From assembly GCA_003152795.1 (NCBI GenBank), contig PMBA01000317.1, positions 1-13,403 of the forward strand: DNA of 13,403 nt. The letters run 5' to 3'. Under the pieces are notes generated by a model that saw nothing but the letters and a program-made list of their open reading frames with translations, was not told the origin of the DNA and did no database searches. Made by a program: the position numbers and the translations under genes. Positions 4,102-10,813 of this stretch are shown piece after piece (within the stretch, counting starts at the first letter, position 1; the number at the start of each line of letters is the position of its first letter). Origin of the DNA: Acidobacteriaceae bacterium (GTDB lineage: Bacteria; Acidobacteriota; Terriglobia; Terriglobales; Acidobacteriaceae).

Positions 4102-5262
4102 TCAGAGCGGCAGGGCGAAGTTCACAGCAATCTCCGTGTCAACCTCCGCAGCTTGTCCTGAAATTACATACGGTCTGTATCGCCATTGCCGAACTGCACT
4201 GACCGCTGCGGCGACTAGCTCTTGTGGCCCAGAGATTGGCTCAACGCTAACGACCTTTCCCTGAGTGCTAATCACAGCGCGTAGTAAGACTCTTCCGCCG
4301 ACGTGATTTTGTTTGGCAAACTGTGGGTAGACGGGACCGACGCGGCGAAGGAGTAGTCCTGCCATCACTCCGCTGGAAACCTGTACACGCCGAGGCGCAG
4401 TCGATGCCTTGCTGAGACTGTGCCCAGCGCCCGATTTGGCTGATTGGTCAAAATTCCGAGCACCAGTTGTGGCAGAAGCGAGAGCCACCCCCCAAGGCTC
4501 ATACTCTCTATAGTTACTAATTGCGAACCCAGCTGAGGGATCCGCTCCGTTGCTCAGGCTGACGACTAAACCTTGCAACGTAACCTGCAATATCGTCCGG
4601 TTTTTTGGCCCCCATTTGTACTTTCTCACCTTTTGTGTCTTGCCGAGAACCTGCGCTGTCTCCTCGCCAGCAAACACGATCTTCATGGGGTTGTCTAACT
4701 TTAGGGCGATGTCTCCGGGGTTGATTCCGCTCGTCAGGGCATAGACATTTATGCTGCCATCCTTAACCTTACTGTCCGAAGCCAGGTGTACAGCACCCGT
4801 TAGGAACCACACTAGATCCAAATCGTAGAACTCTCCGACAAGTAGGTACGGTGACGTTGCTTCGACCGATGTCGTCGCCTTTCGCCCCTCGGAGGATTCA
4901 GCGTCACATTTCAATTCTCTTTCCAAATATTGGCAGGAAATAGTCCAACCCGGAAGGCTTGAAGCACTCGAAGGCGGCATTGCATGCGCCCCGAACTGCA
5001 TGGTGTATCCACTTGGCAAAAACTGCCTGTCGAAATGAAATATCTGAACGGAAGATTTATCCTTGGCGCTGGAGTCTACCACCTCGTATGCGCCATCATC
5101 TAGCTGCCAGAGTTTCCAGTGATTGTTTAATCTACTGCCGTGCTCTGACCGCGAACCGCTGTCACCCTCTGCCAAAAGCGTACGACCGGTTCCAGTAGTG
5201 GTCTGACCGAACACCAATGTGCAGGCCAGGAACAAAGGGATGATCCAGGTTAACGTCTCCAC
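4102..5262 (-). CDS. Exported protein with C-terminal TonB-like domain
   Basis: 386 aa from GTG 5262, chosen because AAGGAGG (5268-5274) lies 5 nt upstream and because a hydrophobic export segment (TWIIPLFLACTLVFGQ, residues 5-20) follows at once. The upstream ATG at 5460 would overlap the preceding gene by about 100 nt and put 66 residues before the signal. Residues of about 20-290 are a beta-rich region I do not recognise. The last 85 or so residues match a TonB C-terminal domain: GLLLRRVGPVYPQFAKQ, then GGRVLLRAVISTQGKV, then AVRQWRYRPY. Such domains usually contact outer-membrane receptors or act as periplasmic protein-interaction modules, and acidobacteria have many. It lies 97 nt downstream of the membrane-protein gene and is probably co-transcribed with it. 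The n-region lacks Lys/Arg, which is a mild oddity. Confidence 0.78.
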   Translation of the reverse strand: METLTWIIPLFLACTLVFGQTTTGTGRTLLAEGDSGSRSEHGSRLNNHWKLWQLDDGAYEVVDSSAKDKSSVQIFHFDRQFLPSGYTMQFGAHAMPPSSASSLPGWTISCQYLERELKCDAESSEGRKATTSVEATSPYLLVGEFYDLDLVWFLTGAVHLASDSKVKDGSINVYALTSGINPGDIALKLDNPMKIVFAGEETAQVLGKTQKVRKYKWGPKNRTILQVTLQGLVVSLSNGADPSAGFAISNYREYEPWGVALASATTGARNFDQSAKSGAGHSLSKASTAPRRVQVSSGVMAGLLLRRVGPVYPQFAKQNHVGGRVLLRAVISTQGKVVSVEPISGPQELVAAAVSAVRQWRYRPYVISGQAAEVDTEIAVNFALPL

Positions 5263-5267
5263 CGCCA

Positions 5268-5274
5268 CCTCCTT
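5268..5274 (-). promoter_or_regulatory. Shine-Dalgarno deciding the GTG start of the TonB-like gene
   Basis: AAGGAGG on the minus strand, 5 nt before GTG at 5262. It is the best ribosome binding site in the 5' part of the open frame and places translation directly before the hydrophobic signal segment. Confidence 0.6.
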
Positions 5275-5359
5275 CACCTTGGTAGCAAGCCTCCGAAGGT
5301 GATTCAATGCATAGTATCGGGGCGCCGCTCGTAGCGACGATCTTATTCCCGATTCGTTG

Positions 5360-5869
5360 TCATCCAGAAAAGGGTTTAGTACGCCCAGCATCTGCTTCAT
5401 CGCTGCGGGCTCCTGTCCGGTTGAAAACAAGCGCCATCGTAGCGCCGATGGAATAGGCAACCGAATTGAGAGCTGGCCATGTATAGAACATTACACCTAG
5501 GCATTCCGTCATTCCACATTCACCCTGCTTGAGAGGAAACAATTCGATCCTGACCTTCGCCATCGGCGAAATCCCCACCGGATGCCACCCCCTCGATGTA
5601 TTTATAATTCCGCAAGCTAGCCAAACAAGGCCAGGAATCCACACAAAACATGCGGCGCGATGAAGAGTTCGACGATTTACAAAGAGACCCAATGCCAGCC
5701 CCGGCCACCAGACAAAAGGCCCGTACCAAGAGTCAATCAATTGAATTGGACCCACTTGGAATATATGGAGGCTGATGCCTAGTATGATTCCACCGATGAA
5801 GATACCAGCGACACTCACAGGCATTGCTACTATGGTGTGTATGCCAAGCTGTCCAAGAGTCTTTTTCAA
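5360..5869 (-). CDS. Four-helix membrane protein of unknown function
   Basis: 169 aa starting at TTG 5869, with AGGTG four bases upstream. Hydrophobic segments fall at about residues 10-36 (IVAMPVSVAGIFIGGIILGI), 48-63 (GPFVWWPGLALGLFV), 72-90 (ACFVWIPGLVWLACGII) and 122-150 (LGVMFYTWPALNSVAYSIGA). A soluble loop with Cys and Lys residues (about 98-121) separates the third and fourth. The first segment follows a Lys-Lys start, so the N-terminus is probably cytoplasmic. No family is recognised. It is the first gene of a two-gene minus-strand unit with the TonB-like gene. The pair looks like chromosomal-type cargo rather than an element core function. Confidence 0.7.
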   Translation of the reverse strand: MKKTLGQLGIHTIVAMPVSVAGIFIGGIILGISLHIFQVGPIQLIDSWYGPFVWWPGLALGLFVNRRTLHRAACFVWIPGLVWLACGIINTSRGWHPVGISPMAKVRIELFPLKQGECGMTECLGVMFYTWPALNSVAYSIGATMALVFNRTGARSDEADAGRTKPFSG

Positions 5870-7608: not shown

Positions 7609-8826
7609 TCACTGCTTTTTATTGCTCCATGGGCCGAGTGATTCCATGTATGCCCGGATGAATTCCGCCGCCACTTCGGGAACGATTGCATTGCCGTATC
7701 CGCTGATTCTCATGTCCCTTGCTTCCGCCGTGGCATTCGCATCCAACGGTGCGCCCGGATCGCAGCCACGTCCCACGTTTCGGGAAAGCCCTGCAACCAG
7801 CGGGTAAATGCCGGGTTTAGTTGGCCGCCATTTCCCGTCGCCGGGGCAGTAGAGCCATCGGGCGTCGGCCCAGAAGCCAGCACCAGCACCACCTGCCCGC
7901 ACAGCATGCTCGGCGGCCCCTTCCCCTCCCCCCTCTTTTGCCCGTGGGTATCGCCCTCGATTGGCGTCCGCCAGCCCGCCAGCATCGTGACTTGGTCTTT
8001 CAGGTTCGAGCAGCCGCCCTTCGTTTTCCTTGCCTCCAAGTCCCGGGATTCCATGGAGTCCATGGTGTTGGGAGTCCCCCAAGGCACAAGCTGTGCCACC
8101 GTGCTCAGCATCTTCTGCTTCGTCCCCAGTTTGGGGTTCGCCGCCTTCTGCTTGGCGTTCAGCCGTTCCCATTCCTCGGGGCTCATGCCGTTCTCGTTCG
8201 CTCCCGGACTCGGCCAACTCGCAATCTGGGCCGCCACGCCCAGAGACATGCTGAACGGCGATTCCCTCGCCTCGTTCCTCCGCTTCCACGACTCCAGCGT
8301 CTCGCCCGATTCTTGGTCCCTCGGCGTCGGCCACCCAATACAATCGCTGCCGGATGTGGGGGCTGCCGACGCTGTGTGCTCCCAGTACAATCGCCCCGCA
8401 GGCGTAACCTTCCGTCTCCAAGTCTGACGAAACAAGATCGAGCCATCCGTAGGCAATCGCCTCCTCAACTTGCTCGCCAAGGACAAGCTGAGGTCGGCAC
8501 TCGCGGATGAGCCTGAACCATATGGGCCACAGGTGCCTCTCATCCTCGGTTCCAAGCTTCTTCCCTGCGGGCGAAAACGGTTGGCACGGGCACGACCCCG
8601 TCCAGCATTCGAGGTCCGGGACCCCGGCGTGTTGGAGGGAGAGGGGCCAGCCTGCGACCCCGGCAAAAAAATGACACTGCTTATATCCGGCGAGGTCGCC
8701 GGGTTGAACCTCAACGATGCTTCTCTCATCTATTTCTCCCTCCGGGATCAAACCCATCTTCATAAGTTGCCGCAGCCATTCGCATTTTTCGGGACTTATT
8801 TCGTTGTAGTACACGCGAGTTTTCAT
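7609..8826 (-). CDS. DNA (cytosine-5-)-methyltransferase, orphan, phage type
   Basis: 405 aa, predicted to transfer a methyl group from S-adenosylmethionine to carbon 5 of cytosine in DNA. Motifs visible in order: motif I FFAGVAGW (53-60), motif IV with the catalytic cysteine GSCPCQPFS (Cys81), GEQV (117-120) in place of the common ENV, IRQRLYWV (158-165, motif VIII), and the closing GYGNAIVP with a helical tail near the C-terminus. The stretch 169-318 is a low-complexity Gly/Glu/Arg-rich region with repeated (L/V/W)-(A/G)-(D/E)-(A/S) motifs at 165, 204, 249, 285 and 319, where a target-recognition region would be expected. ATG 8826 overlaps the previous gene's stop (ATGA), so translation is probably coupled. 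No restriction endonuclease is adjacent, which suggests an orphan enzyme. Another long frame overlaps it (7710-8729). Confidence 0.9.
   Translation of the reverse strand: MKTRVYYNEISPEKCEWLRQLMKMGLIPEGEIDERSIVEVQPGDLAGYKQCHFFAGVAGWPLSLQHAGVPDLECWTGSCPCQPFSPAGKKLGTEDERHLWPIWFRLIRECRPQLVLGEQVEEAIAYGWLDLVSSDLETEGYACGAIVLGAHSVGSPHIRQRLYWVADAEGPRIGRDAGVVEAEERGEGIAVQHVSGRGGPDCELAESGSERERHEPRGMGTAERQAEGGEPQTGDEAEDAEHGGTACALGDSQHHGLHGIPGLGGKENEGRLLEPERPSHDAGGLADANRGRYPRAKEGGGEGAAEHAVRAGGAGAGFWADARWLYCPGDGKWRPTKPGIYPLVAGLSRNVGRGCDPGAPLDANATAEARDMRISGYGNAIVPEVAAEFIRAYMESLGPWSNKKQ
7710..8729 (-). CDS. Overlapping second frame inside the methyltransferase gene, WPTP-repeat protein candidate
   Basis: 339 codons on the same strand, shifted by one base from the methyltransferase and lying wholly within it (methyltransferase residues of about 33-372). 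ATG 8729 is preceded by GGAG with a 6-nt spacer. Residues 95-136 read GSILFRQTWRRKVTPAGRLY, then WEHTASAAPTSGSDCIGWPTP. Further motifs are WPSP (172), WGTP (217), WRTP (253), GPTP (287), and near the end GGQLNPAFTRWLQGFPETWD (301-320). From memory, sequences of this kind occur in database proteins labelled methyltransferase-related or hypothetical, so this frame may be genuinely translated. In the 130-300 segment its composition is more normal than that of the methyltransferase frame. It could instead be a conserved by-product of the methyltransferase's repeats. Function unknown. Confidence 0.45.
   Translation of the reverse strand: MREASLRFNPATSPDISSVIFLPGSQAGPSPSNTPGSRTSNAGRGRARANRFRPQGRSLEPRMRGTCGPYGSGSSASADLSLSLASKLRRRLPTDGSILFRQTWRRKVTPAGRLYWEHTASAAPTSGSDCIGWPTPRDQESGETLESWKRRNEARESPFSMSLGVAAQIASWPSPGANENGMSPEEWERLNAKQKAANPKLGTKQKMLSTVAQLVPWGTPNTMDSMESRDLEARKTKGGCSNLKDQVTMLAGWRTPIEGDTHGQKRGEGKGPPSMLCGQVVLVLASGPTPDGSTAPATGNGGQLNPAFTRWLQGFPETWDVAAIRAHRWMRMPRRKQGT
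8736..8740 (-). promoter_or_regulatory. Shine-Dalgarno inside the methyltransferase gene for the second frame
   Basis: GGGAG on the minus strand, followed by AAATAG and ATG at 8729. It matches a good initiation site in sequence and spacing. It also encodes part of the methyltransferase's own Glu-Gly-Glu stretch, so it might be fortuitous. Confidence 0.45.
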
Positions 8827-9889: not shown

Positions 9890-10813
9890 TCATCCAGCCA
9901 GTTCTGTACTCTCTGGGAACTCACGCAGTCGGAGGTCTTCCGGCCATTCTTGGGGGTCACCACCCTTGGGATCGGAGTGAGCGATTGGAATGCTGCCATC
10001 CACGGGTCGCCTGCCGATCTGCTTCACGAAACACGGCACGTGTTGCTCGCGACACTGACCGATAATGGAACGCGCCCACTGGAGATCAAAAGGGCGTGCG
10101 CCGTGGCCGCTCTCGCCACCAACAATCACCCAATGGATTCCGGACAGGTCGAGTGCGCCCAAGCACTCCAAGAGCGGCTCAATGGAGAGGAACCGCACTG
10201 CTACGTCTGCGGAACGGAGATTTTCAATTCGCGGAAGACCGGATTTGCGGTTCTCTACTGAAACGCCCCACCAGATATGCGGGTCTCGCGCACAAAACTG
10301 AAGCTTGGAATTGAGCAGGTCACGCATGCGCTCACTTCTCTTTGTGAGCACCTGAAAGACGTGCCAGTTCGCCCGGTGCATGACTTCCGCAACCCTGATG
10401 ATGTCTGCGTCTGAAAGGTGCTCATGGAAGAGATCGCTCATTGAATTCACAAAGATCATCTGAGGCTTGCGCCAGTGAATCGGTTCTTCCAACTTGTGTT
10501 CCACCAGCCGAACCACCCCTGTCCACTTGGGAGTTCCTCCTTGAATAACGGTGAGACCTTGATATTGCGATATGCCCATTGCCTCACACCGGAACGCCTG
10601 CCACATTGCGTAACAGTGCTCACAACCCTTGCTGCATTTTGAGCAGCCGACCACGGGGTTCCACGTCCGTCCTGTCCACTGGATTTTGGTTTTGCCCTTC
10701 AATGACGCGCCACAGAATTGCCGCCTGCTGGGTCGGCCGCAAGACGTGCAGATTTCTGAGGCGGTTTTATTTGCCACCTTGCTATCCGTGTTCGTTTTGA
10801 TTGATCTCGCCAT
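9890..10813 (-). CDS. Phage Gp37/Gp68-type protein (DUF5131), radical-SAM-like cysteine cluster
   Basis: 307 aa from ATG 10813, with GGAAGGA about 8 nt upstream. The core KTKIQWTGRTWNPVVGC, then SKCSKGCEHCYA (residues 42-69) is the signature start of the Gp37/Gp68 family. Cys57, Cys64 and Cys67 match the family cysteines, and an added Cys60 makes a CxxxCxxC as in radical-SAM enzymes. Further family-like pieces are KPQMIFVNSMSDLFHE, FQVLTKRSERM, HIWWGVSVEN, RFLSIEPLLE, WVIVGGESG and PCFVKQIG. Residues 1-40 form an extension with three extra cysteines (C22, C25, C34), which could bind a metal. The biochemical role of the family is not settled to my knowledge. The usual partner TcmP is not visible here. 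Confidence 0.85.
   Translation of the reverse strand: MARSIKTNTDSKVANKTASEICTSCGRPSRRQFCGASLKGKTKIQWTGRTWNPVVGCSKCSKGCEHCYAMWQAFRCEAMGISQYQGLTVIQGGTPKWTGVVRLVEHKLEEPIHWRKPQMIFVNSMSDLFHEHLSDADIIRVAEVMHRANWHVFQVLTKRSERMRDLLNSKLQFCARDPHIWWGVSVENRKSGLPRIENLRSADVAVRFLSIEPLLECLGALDLSGIHWVIVGGESGHGARPFDLQWARSIIGQCREQHVPCFVKQIGRRPVDGSIPIAHSDPKGGDPQEWPEDLRLREFPESTELAG

Follow-up and report, generated by a model that had tools for sequence, protein, structure and literature searches.

A C5-cytosine DNA methyltransferase gene of an Acidobacteriaceae bacterium contains a second, +1 reading frame that, judging by its relatives, probably encodes a protein in its own right. We read the pair, at a probability of roughly 0.7, as a phage-type two-subunit m5C-methyltransferase encoded in overlapping frames, in which the second subunit would supply motif IX and swappable target-recognition modules. 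The window, by which we mean the whole stretch of 13,403 nucleotides analysed, carries the first frame (alpha, 405 aa) at 7609..8826 on the minus strand, as do all features below unless stated otherwise. Alpha is assigned as the catalytic subunit from its matches to PF00145, PHROG_363 and the M.HhaI fold. The +1 frame inside it (beta, 339 aa, 7710..8729) is the proposed specificity subunit, on the basis of PHROG_1008, frame conservation and purifying selection in relatives. A sequence-only reading of the window had described a 339-codon frame overprinted on a methyltransferase gene, with a GGAG and an ATG of its own; both open reading frames are present, and a Shine-Dalgarno GGAGG (8739..8743) within alpha is followed, after nine bases, by the beta ATG, an arrangement that agrees with the start contexts of relatives. 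The beta opening is long by the standards of the window: in five other genes of it, the longest +1 openings are 65–80 codons and the +2 openings 41–109.

Alpha contains PCQPFS (motif IV, with Cys81; 8572..8589), in columns that are invariant or nearly so in the alpha alignment, RQRLYW (motif VIII; 8335..8352) and GYGNAIVP (motif X; 7678..7701), the last recognised in the alignment by its conserved GNAI alone. Motif VI reads EQV, not ENV. We take the motif numbering (IV, VI, VIII, X) and the catalytic role of Cys81 to be as in C5-methyltransferases generally. Between motifs VIII and X lies a low-complexity, probably disordered segment (7876..8328; pLDDT <50 at residues 177–313, NN/SN ratio 1.0–1.3 in the cassettes of relatives). 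As had been remarked from the letters, the methyltransferase frame is here the simpler of the two: it is Gly/Glu/Ala-rich, with an entropy of 3.57 bits (4.12 bits in alpha upstream), vs 4.00 bits for beta over the same bases. Beta consists of a constant region, GS..TW..K.TP.GR (8355..8444), predicted from model confidence to form a beta-hairpin and including invariant G96 and W104, followed by four cassettes beginning WPTPRDQES (cassette 1, 8217..8333), WPSPGANEN (cassette 2, 8082..8216), WGTPNTMDS (cassette 3, 7974..8081) and WRTPIEGDT (cassette 4, 7872..7973), and by the motif IX-like LNPAFTRWLQGFPETWD (7770..7820), which is conserved in the beta alignment. All five 12-base cores said to be read in both frames (VADA/WPTP, LAES/WPSP, LGDS/WGTP, LADA/WRTP and WADA/GPTP) are there, but the fifth is not the head of a repeat. 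GPTP falls in the constant C-terminal part of beta, where the alignment pairs SGPTPDGSTA with SGEMLTGSSA, and the window therefore holds four cassettes rather than five repeats.

The strong evidence for the overlap comes from relatives rather than from the window gene. Taken alone, the whole window methyltransferase has 6 stops in the +1 frame vs 6.4 in synonymous shuffles (P 0.53), and its PCQP–GNAI interval has 0 vs 2.1 expected (P 0.038). A search with alpha, independent of beta, gave 80 phage loci. Far from being routinely broken and unconstrained, the outcome that the sequence-only reading had named as counting against it, the +1 frame is open for at least 200 codons in 76 of them, while the +2 frame never extends beyond 143. 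The other four are L026, with a single in-frame beta stop, L058, with an inserted ORF, L065, where the match lies near a contig end, and L080, where it covers only the last part of alpha. L070 has a +1 opening of 206 codons yet contains beta-frame stops, so that in three loci, L026, L058 and L070, a stop or an insertion interrupts beta. For a shuffling test, 86 loci (the 80 found with alpha, the window, 3 found with beta and 2 more) were grouped into 55 clusters at 90% identity, and 48 of the 55 representatives were used, 7 without recognisable motif patterns being left out. Between PCQP and GNAI (11,314 codons), these 48 contain 2 stops in the +1 frame, one each in L026 and L057, vs 169.3 expected under synonymous-codon shuffling; in the +2 frame they contain 574 vs 528.4 expected. 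A search with the beta alignment, taking the best 80 of 181 bacterial-genome loci and the best 80 of at least 568 viral loci (156 distinct stretches), approached the pair from the other side. Alpha is open across the beta match in 156 of these 160 loci; it has 4 stops in 49,638 codons, one apiece in L113, L142, L183 and L237, vs 2107 in the third frame. In 152 of the 160, the alpha ORF contains both methyltransferase motifs (PCxx and GNxI), and the remaining eight (L106, L113, L119, L126, L142, L159, L183 and L237) still have one or both in the alpha frame, some having been missed by the search pattern.

Selection on the overlap was assessed by counting distinct base changes relative to the consensus and sorting them by their effect on each frame (observed/possible). 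In the cassettes of enterobacterial phages, changes that alter alpha only (alpha-N/beta-S) number 281/737, those that alter beta only (alpha-S/beta-N) 31/746 and those that alter both (N/N) 66/1587. In the cassettes of other lineages the same three classes are 492/1293, 94/1381 and 229/2545, or 186/545, 13/552 and 47/1006 under stricter grouping. Purifying selection on beta is thus strong in relatives' cassettes, with constraint ratios of 0.11 (enterobacterial) and 0.24 (other lineages) and Fisher p values of about 1e-95 and 1e-99 when changes are treated as independent; in this test, of a kind that the sequence-only reading had proposed, the depletion of changes that alter beta amounts to about 4- to 9-fold. 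No constraint on alpha amino acids was detected in the same cassettes (ratios 1.0 and 1.3). Over the catalytic domain, alpha dominates in the constant part (ratio 0.13), and the beta ratio of 0.44 (p 0.006) is not clearly beyond those of fake +1 controls in the alpha head before beta (0.76), the alpha tail after beta (0.78) and an upstream neighbour gene (0.60), none of which is significant. Both frames are constrained in the C-terminal constant part, with ratios of 0.33 and 0.29. These results show that the two frames divide the labour along the overlap, with alpha in the lead at one end, beta in the lead in the middle and constraint on both at the far end.

Because beta is constrained and no constraint on alpha was detected, the 'ADA' repeats of alpha look like a by-product of selection on beta. 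The alpha readings of the bases that encode 142 cassette heads include VAHA, VANA, MGYA, VAES, LANT and many more, a variety that illustrates the point rather than testing it, as the heads were picked by a beta pattern. In other lineages, changes that would introduce a stop into alpha, as judged against the consensus, show no clear depletion (12/168) relative to other changes (229/2545), but such stops may not be stops in their own sequence contexts, and the direct count is the 4 in 49,638 codons given above. The relatives hold an overlapping gene pair, with both frames maintained and the second under selection. Two explanations had been offered at the outset, that two proteins share the DNA or that a set of repeats sustains two readings. 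The conserved frame and the depletion of beta-altering changes in relatives support the former; of the latter, the repeats survive as real modules, but it is beta and not the methyltransferase frame that selection keeps there.

Cassettes are reshuffled between phages. Beta usually has two to four, of about 28–45 residues each. In the enterobacterial cluster, 44 loci display 25 distinct ordered arrays of one to four W-x-T/S-P cassettes. These cassettes fall into 18 clusters, certain of which are set apart chiefly by their tails. The same types reappear at different array positions among the 203 of 242 beta ORFs that were parsed; the largest group of the first grouping was a constant-region artefact and was removed from later counts. 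Cassettes at least 80% identical form 1181 pairs, 14 of them on alpha cores no more than 65% identical; in 9 of the 14 the array positions differ. Near-identical alpha cores carry different arrays in 663 of 705 locus pairs, a figure that may be inflated because same-type cassettes were required to have equal length. Cassette 3 of the window has close relatives in L008, L009, L010 and L012; cassettes 1, 2 and 4 have weaker relatives only. Two frames of one strand that overlap for about 1 kb, with selection measurable on the second, are rare; here the division of labour between the frames goes together with module shuffling.

It is unlikely that the cassettes of such a two-subunit enzyme are instead docking or regulatory repeats, with specificity residing elsewhere. 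No sequence relatives of beta, cassettes included, were found in the PDB, and a Pfam scan of 32 beta family members returned a single weak match in one member; moreover, a passage of PMC3404938 places the predicted recognition domain of another split enzyme, M.EcoHK31I, in its larger subunit. All of this would suit repeats with a role other than recognition. However, the cassettes sit in the interval between motifs VIII and IX and are swapped between phages, and since alpha shows no amino-acid constraint beneath them, a recognition domain is hardly to be expected in that part of alpha.

Profile and structure comparisons divide the features of a C5-methyltransferase between the two frames. Alpha matches PHROG_363 over nearly its full length (E 1.6e-67) and PF00145 above the cut-off over residues 69–166 only; it falls below the cut-off for NCBIfam dcm and, in PADLOC, hits general methyltransferase models only. 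By hhalign it is related to C5-methyltransferases at P 1e-18, and it shares their catalytic fold, including motifs I, IV, VI and VIII. A recognition domain and motif IX were not found on the same chain: the PF00145 match stops at residue 166, and HMM similarity to M.HhaI ends just past RQRLYW, before both. An AlphaFold model of alpha, made from 26 sequences only, has a mostly confident catalytic domain (residues ~1–170) and a C-terminal helix on either side of the low-confidence segment, and its best PDB fold matches are M.HhaI (top) and M.HaeIII. Beta matches PHROG_1008 (E 1.9e-14) and PHROG_31772, with no match in Pfam, NCBIfam or PADLOC. Its model is poor (pLDDT 57, pTM 0.25) and gave no Foldseek match in the PDB at E 0.001 or better; it is locally better in the hairpin at ~96–125 (pLDDT block means 92–93 at residues 101–120), in a helix region near 181–200 and in the C-terminal helices. 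For motif IX, 20 C5-methyltransferase genes from 30 relative loci were collected as templates, 12 of them with the motif pattern. The C-terminal end of beta can be aligned with motif IX in register, at P 0.004 (motif pieces) and 0.011 (whole genes), a weak signal with hhalign probabilities of 0.9–8%; whole beta gave P 0.065, and an alignment with only seven templates P 0.19 and 0.52.

With a start and a selection regime of its own, beta could in principle be an independent phage protein with no more than its DNA in common with alpha, for instance one that counters restriction or acts as a regulator, and the label 'DNA methyltransferase' on its PHROG family may be a carry-over of annotation. 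We consider this distinctly improbable. Stand-alone beta was not found among the 160 loci (the best 80 of each beta search), alpha stays open in 156 of them, and the eight that fail any test retain methyltransferase motifs. In addition, the similarity of alpha to M.HhaI does not reach as far as the recognition domain or motif IX, the portions that the proposed second subunit would contribute.

Beta appears to begin at a conserved internal Shine-Dalgarno and ATG within alpha. A beta-frame ATG is found at the expected place in 187 of 201 distinct relatives (by alpha cores), and a Shine-Dalgarno sequence precedes 141 of these 187, vs 175 of 2230 (8%) other ATGs in the overlap, a contrast that is somewhat generous because several candidate beta ATGs were allowed per gene. 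We infer that beta is translated in the window as well. A programmed frameshift from alpha into beta would place the cassettes and motif IX on the same polypeptide as the catalytic motifs, but given the conserved internal start (141/187), and an alpha end with motif X that is conserved in the alpha frame, it is very improbable. Chance, in the form of low-complexity methyltransferase repeats that happen to be open in +1, would fit the whole-gene shuffle of the window (6 vs 6.4 stops) but is rejected for the family by the depletion of +1 stops (2 vs 169) and by selection on beta in two lineage sets, with the alpha repeats looking like its by-product.

In the two-subunit methyltransferase that we favour, alpha (frame 0) would provide SAM binding, catalysis (motifs I–VIII) and motif X, linked by a probably disordered spacer, and beta (+1), made from its own Shine-Dalgarno and ATG, would provide the motif IX-like end and the exchangeable cassettes, placed where the target-recognition domain of an ordinary C5-methyltransferase would be. 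Beta would bind alpha and bring motif IX and the recognition modules into the cleft, while the alpha chain would run past the modules as a spacer leading to motif X. Each cassette would read one DNA target, and an exchange of cassettes would change the sites that a phage protects. The benefit to the phage is likely to be protection from host restriction, with cassettes swapped as the enzymes of hosts change. We put at even odds that the pair represents a widespread class of phage m5C-methyltransferases, with an overprinted subunit bearing combinatorial recognition cassettes and the other frame serving there only as a stop-free spacer between core and motif X. If the cassettes do read DNA sites, hundreds of natural loci would offer a directly testable modular code of 5-methylcytosine specificity.

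In multispecific C5-methyltransferases of Bacillus phages (SPbeta/phi3T type), the stretch from motif VIII to motif IX holds several modular recognition units, in frame and on one chain. The likeness is in the several modules in that interval of a phage enzyme; here, in contrast, they are encoded in the +1 frame, on a second protein, and are unconstrained in the methyltransferase frame. The closest precedent is M.EcoHK31I (YGGCCR), whose two genes overlap in different frames. Split C5-methyltransferases were known before, and so was an overlap in such an enzyme. Passages of PMC3404938 describe M.EcoHK31I as having motif IX on a second, smaller polypeptide and motifs I–VIII and X on the larger, and one in PMC3439449 terms it naturally split; alpha, compared with this description, likewise has I–VIII and X. 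The present pair differs in that beta has exchangeable cassette arrays, and in that selection places the VIII–IX region in beta; for M.EcoHK31I, the same passages of PMC3404938 assign the predicted recognition domain to the larger subunit, an assignment that the selection counts speak against in this family. M.AquI is also split between two polypeptides, but with motifs IX and X both on the small subunit (as stated in a passage of PMC3404938), whereas motif X is on alpha here. PHROG_363 (alpha) and PHROG_1008 (beta) are both labelled 'DNA methyltransferase', in entries that are silent on overlap. Among the papers listed in literature searches, none describes the overlap or the cassettes in its title or abstract opening, and nothing there matched the spread of the pair among phages, the map of selection or the shuffling of cassettes within an overprinted frame; the available text of PMC9409062 has 'overprinting' and 'DNA methyltransferase' in unrelated places.

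The overlap is common to phages of many hosts and, by record titles, to bacterial genomes of several phyla; tblastn found relatives of the window beta in 112 phage records and of beta from another phage in 196. Annotators should be aware of it, as three of five phage records annotate one frame only: alpha in epsilon15 and RCIP0114, beta in phiKX1, and both in K1ind2 and PhiXhv-5. One E. coli copy is annotated as broken although neither frame is interrupted (L284 1189-2358; strain EC20, NZ_CP084900.1). RefSeq calls this methyltransferase two incomplete pseudogene pieces, yet its alpha frame runs through 389 codons and its beta frame through 343. Five W-x-T/S-P matches occur in beta, of which one probably belongs to the constant part; cassette variation may have misled the annotation. 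No restriction-enzyme neighbours are annotated at the two plasmid loci examined.

Two loci have extra segments. In L057, alpha, counted from where the match begins, is 565 codons long and has a lengthy additional stretch ahead of motif X, which suggests that the spacer tolerates large insertions. The insert in L058 (1798-2331) is a 177-aa ORF in the beta frame that breaks beta and leaves alpha open. It appears HNH-like by eye, with no Pfam match, and resembles 'ShiLan', an out-of-frame HNH insertion in a phage methylase described in a passage of PMC11855218; Rfam at the gathering threshold found nothing, and no intron, in L058 or the window.

The antisense of the overlap (window 8194-8370, plus strand) weakly matches beta residues 121–179 (E 3e-4), probably for compositional reasons. 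Elsewhere, the window encodes a DUF5131 protein (9890-10813, minus; PADLOC models PDC-M41B and PDC-M30B), a phage integrase (12135-13364, plus) and a weakly replication-O-like protein (1265-2770, minus), on account of which it looks like an integrated phage or element. Within this presumed element, a protein with a TonB C-terminal domain (4102-5460, minus) is possibly host DNA or cargo.
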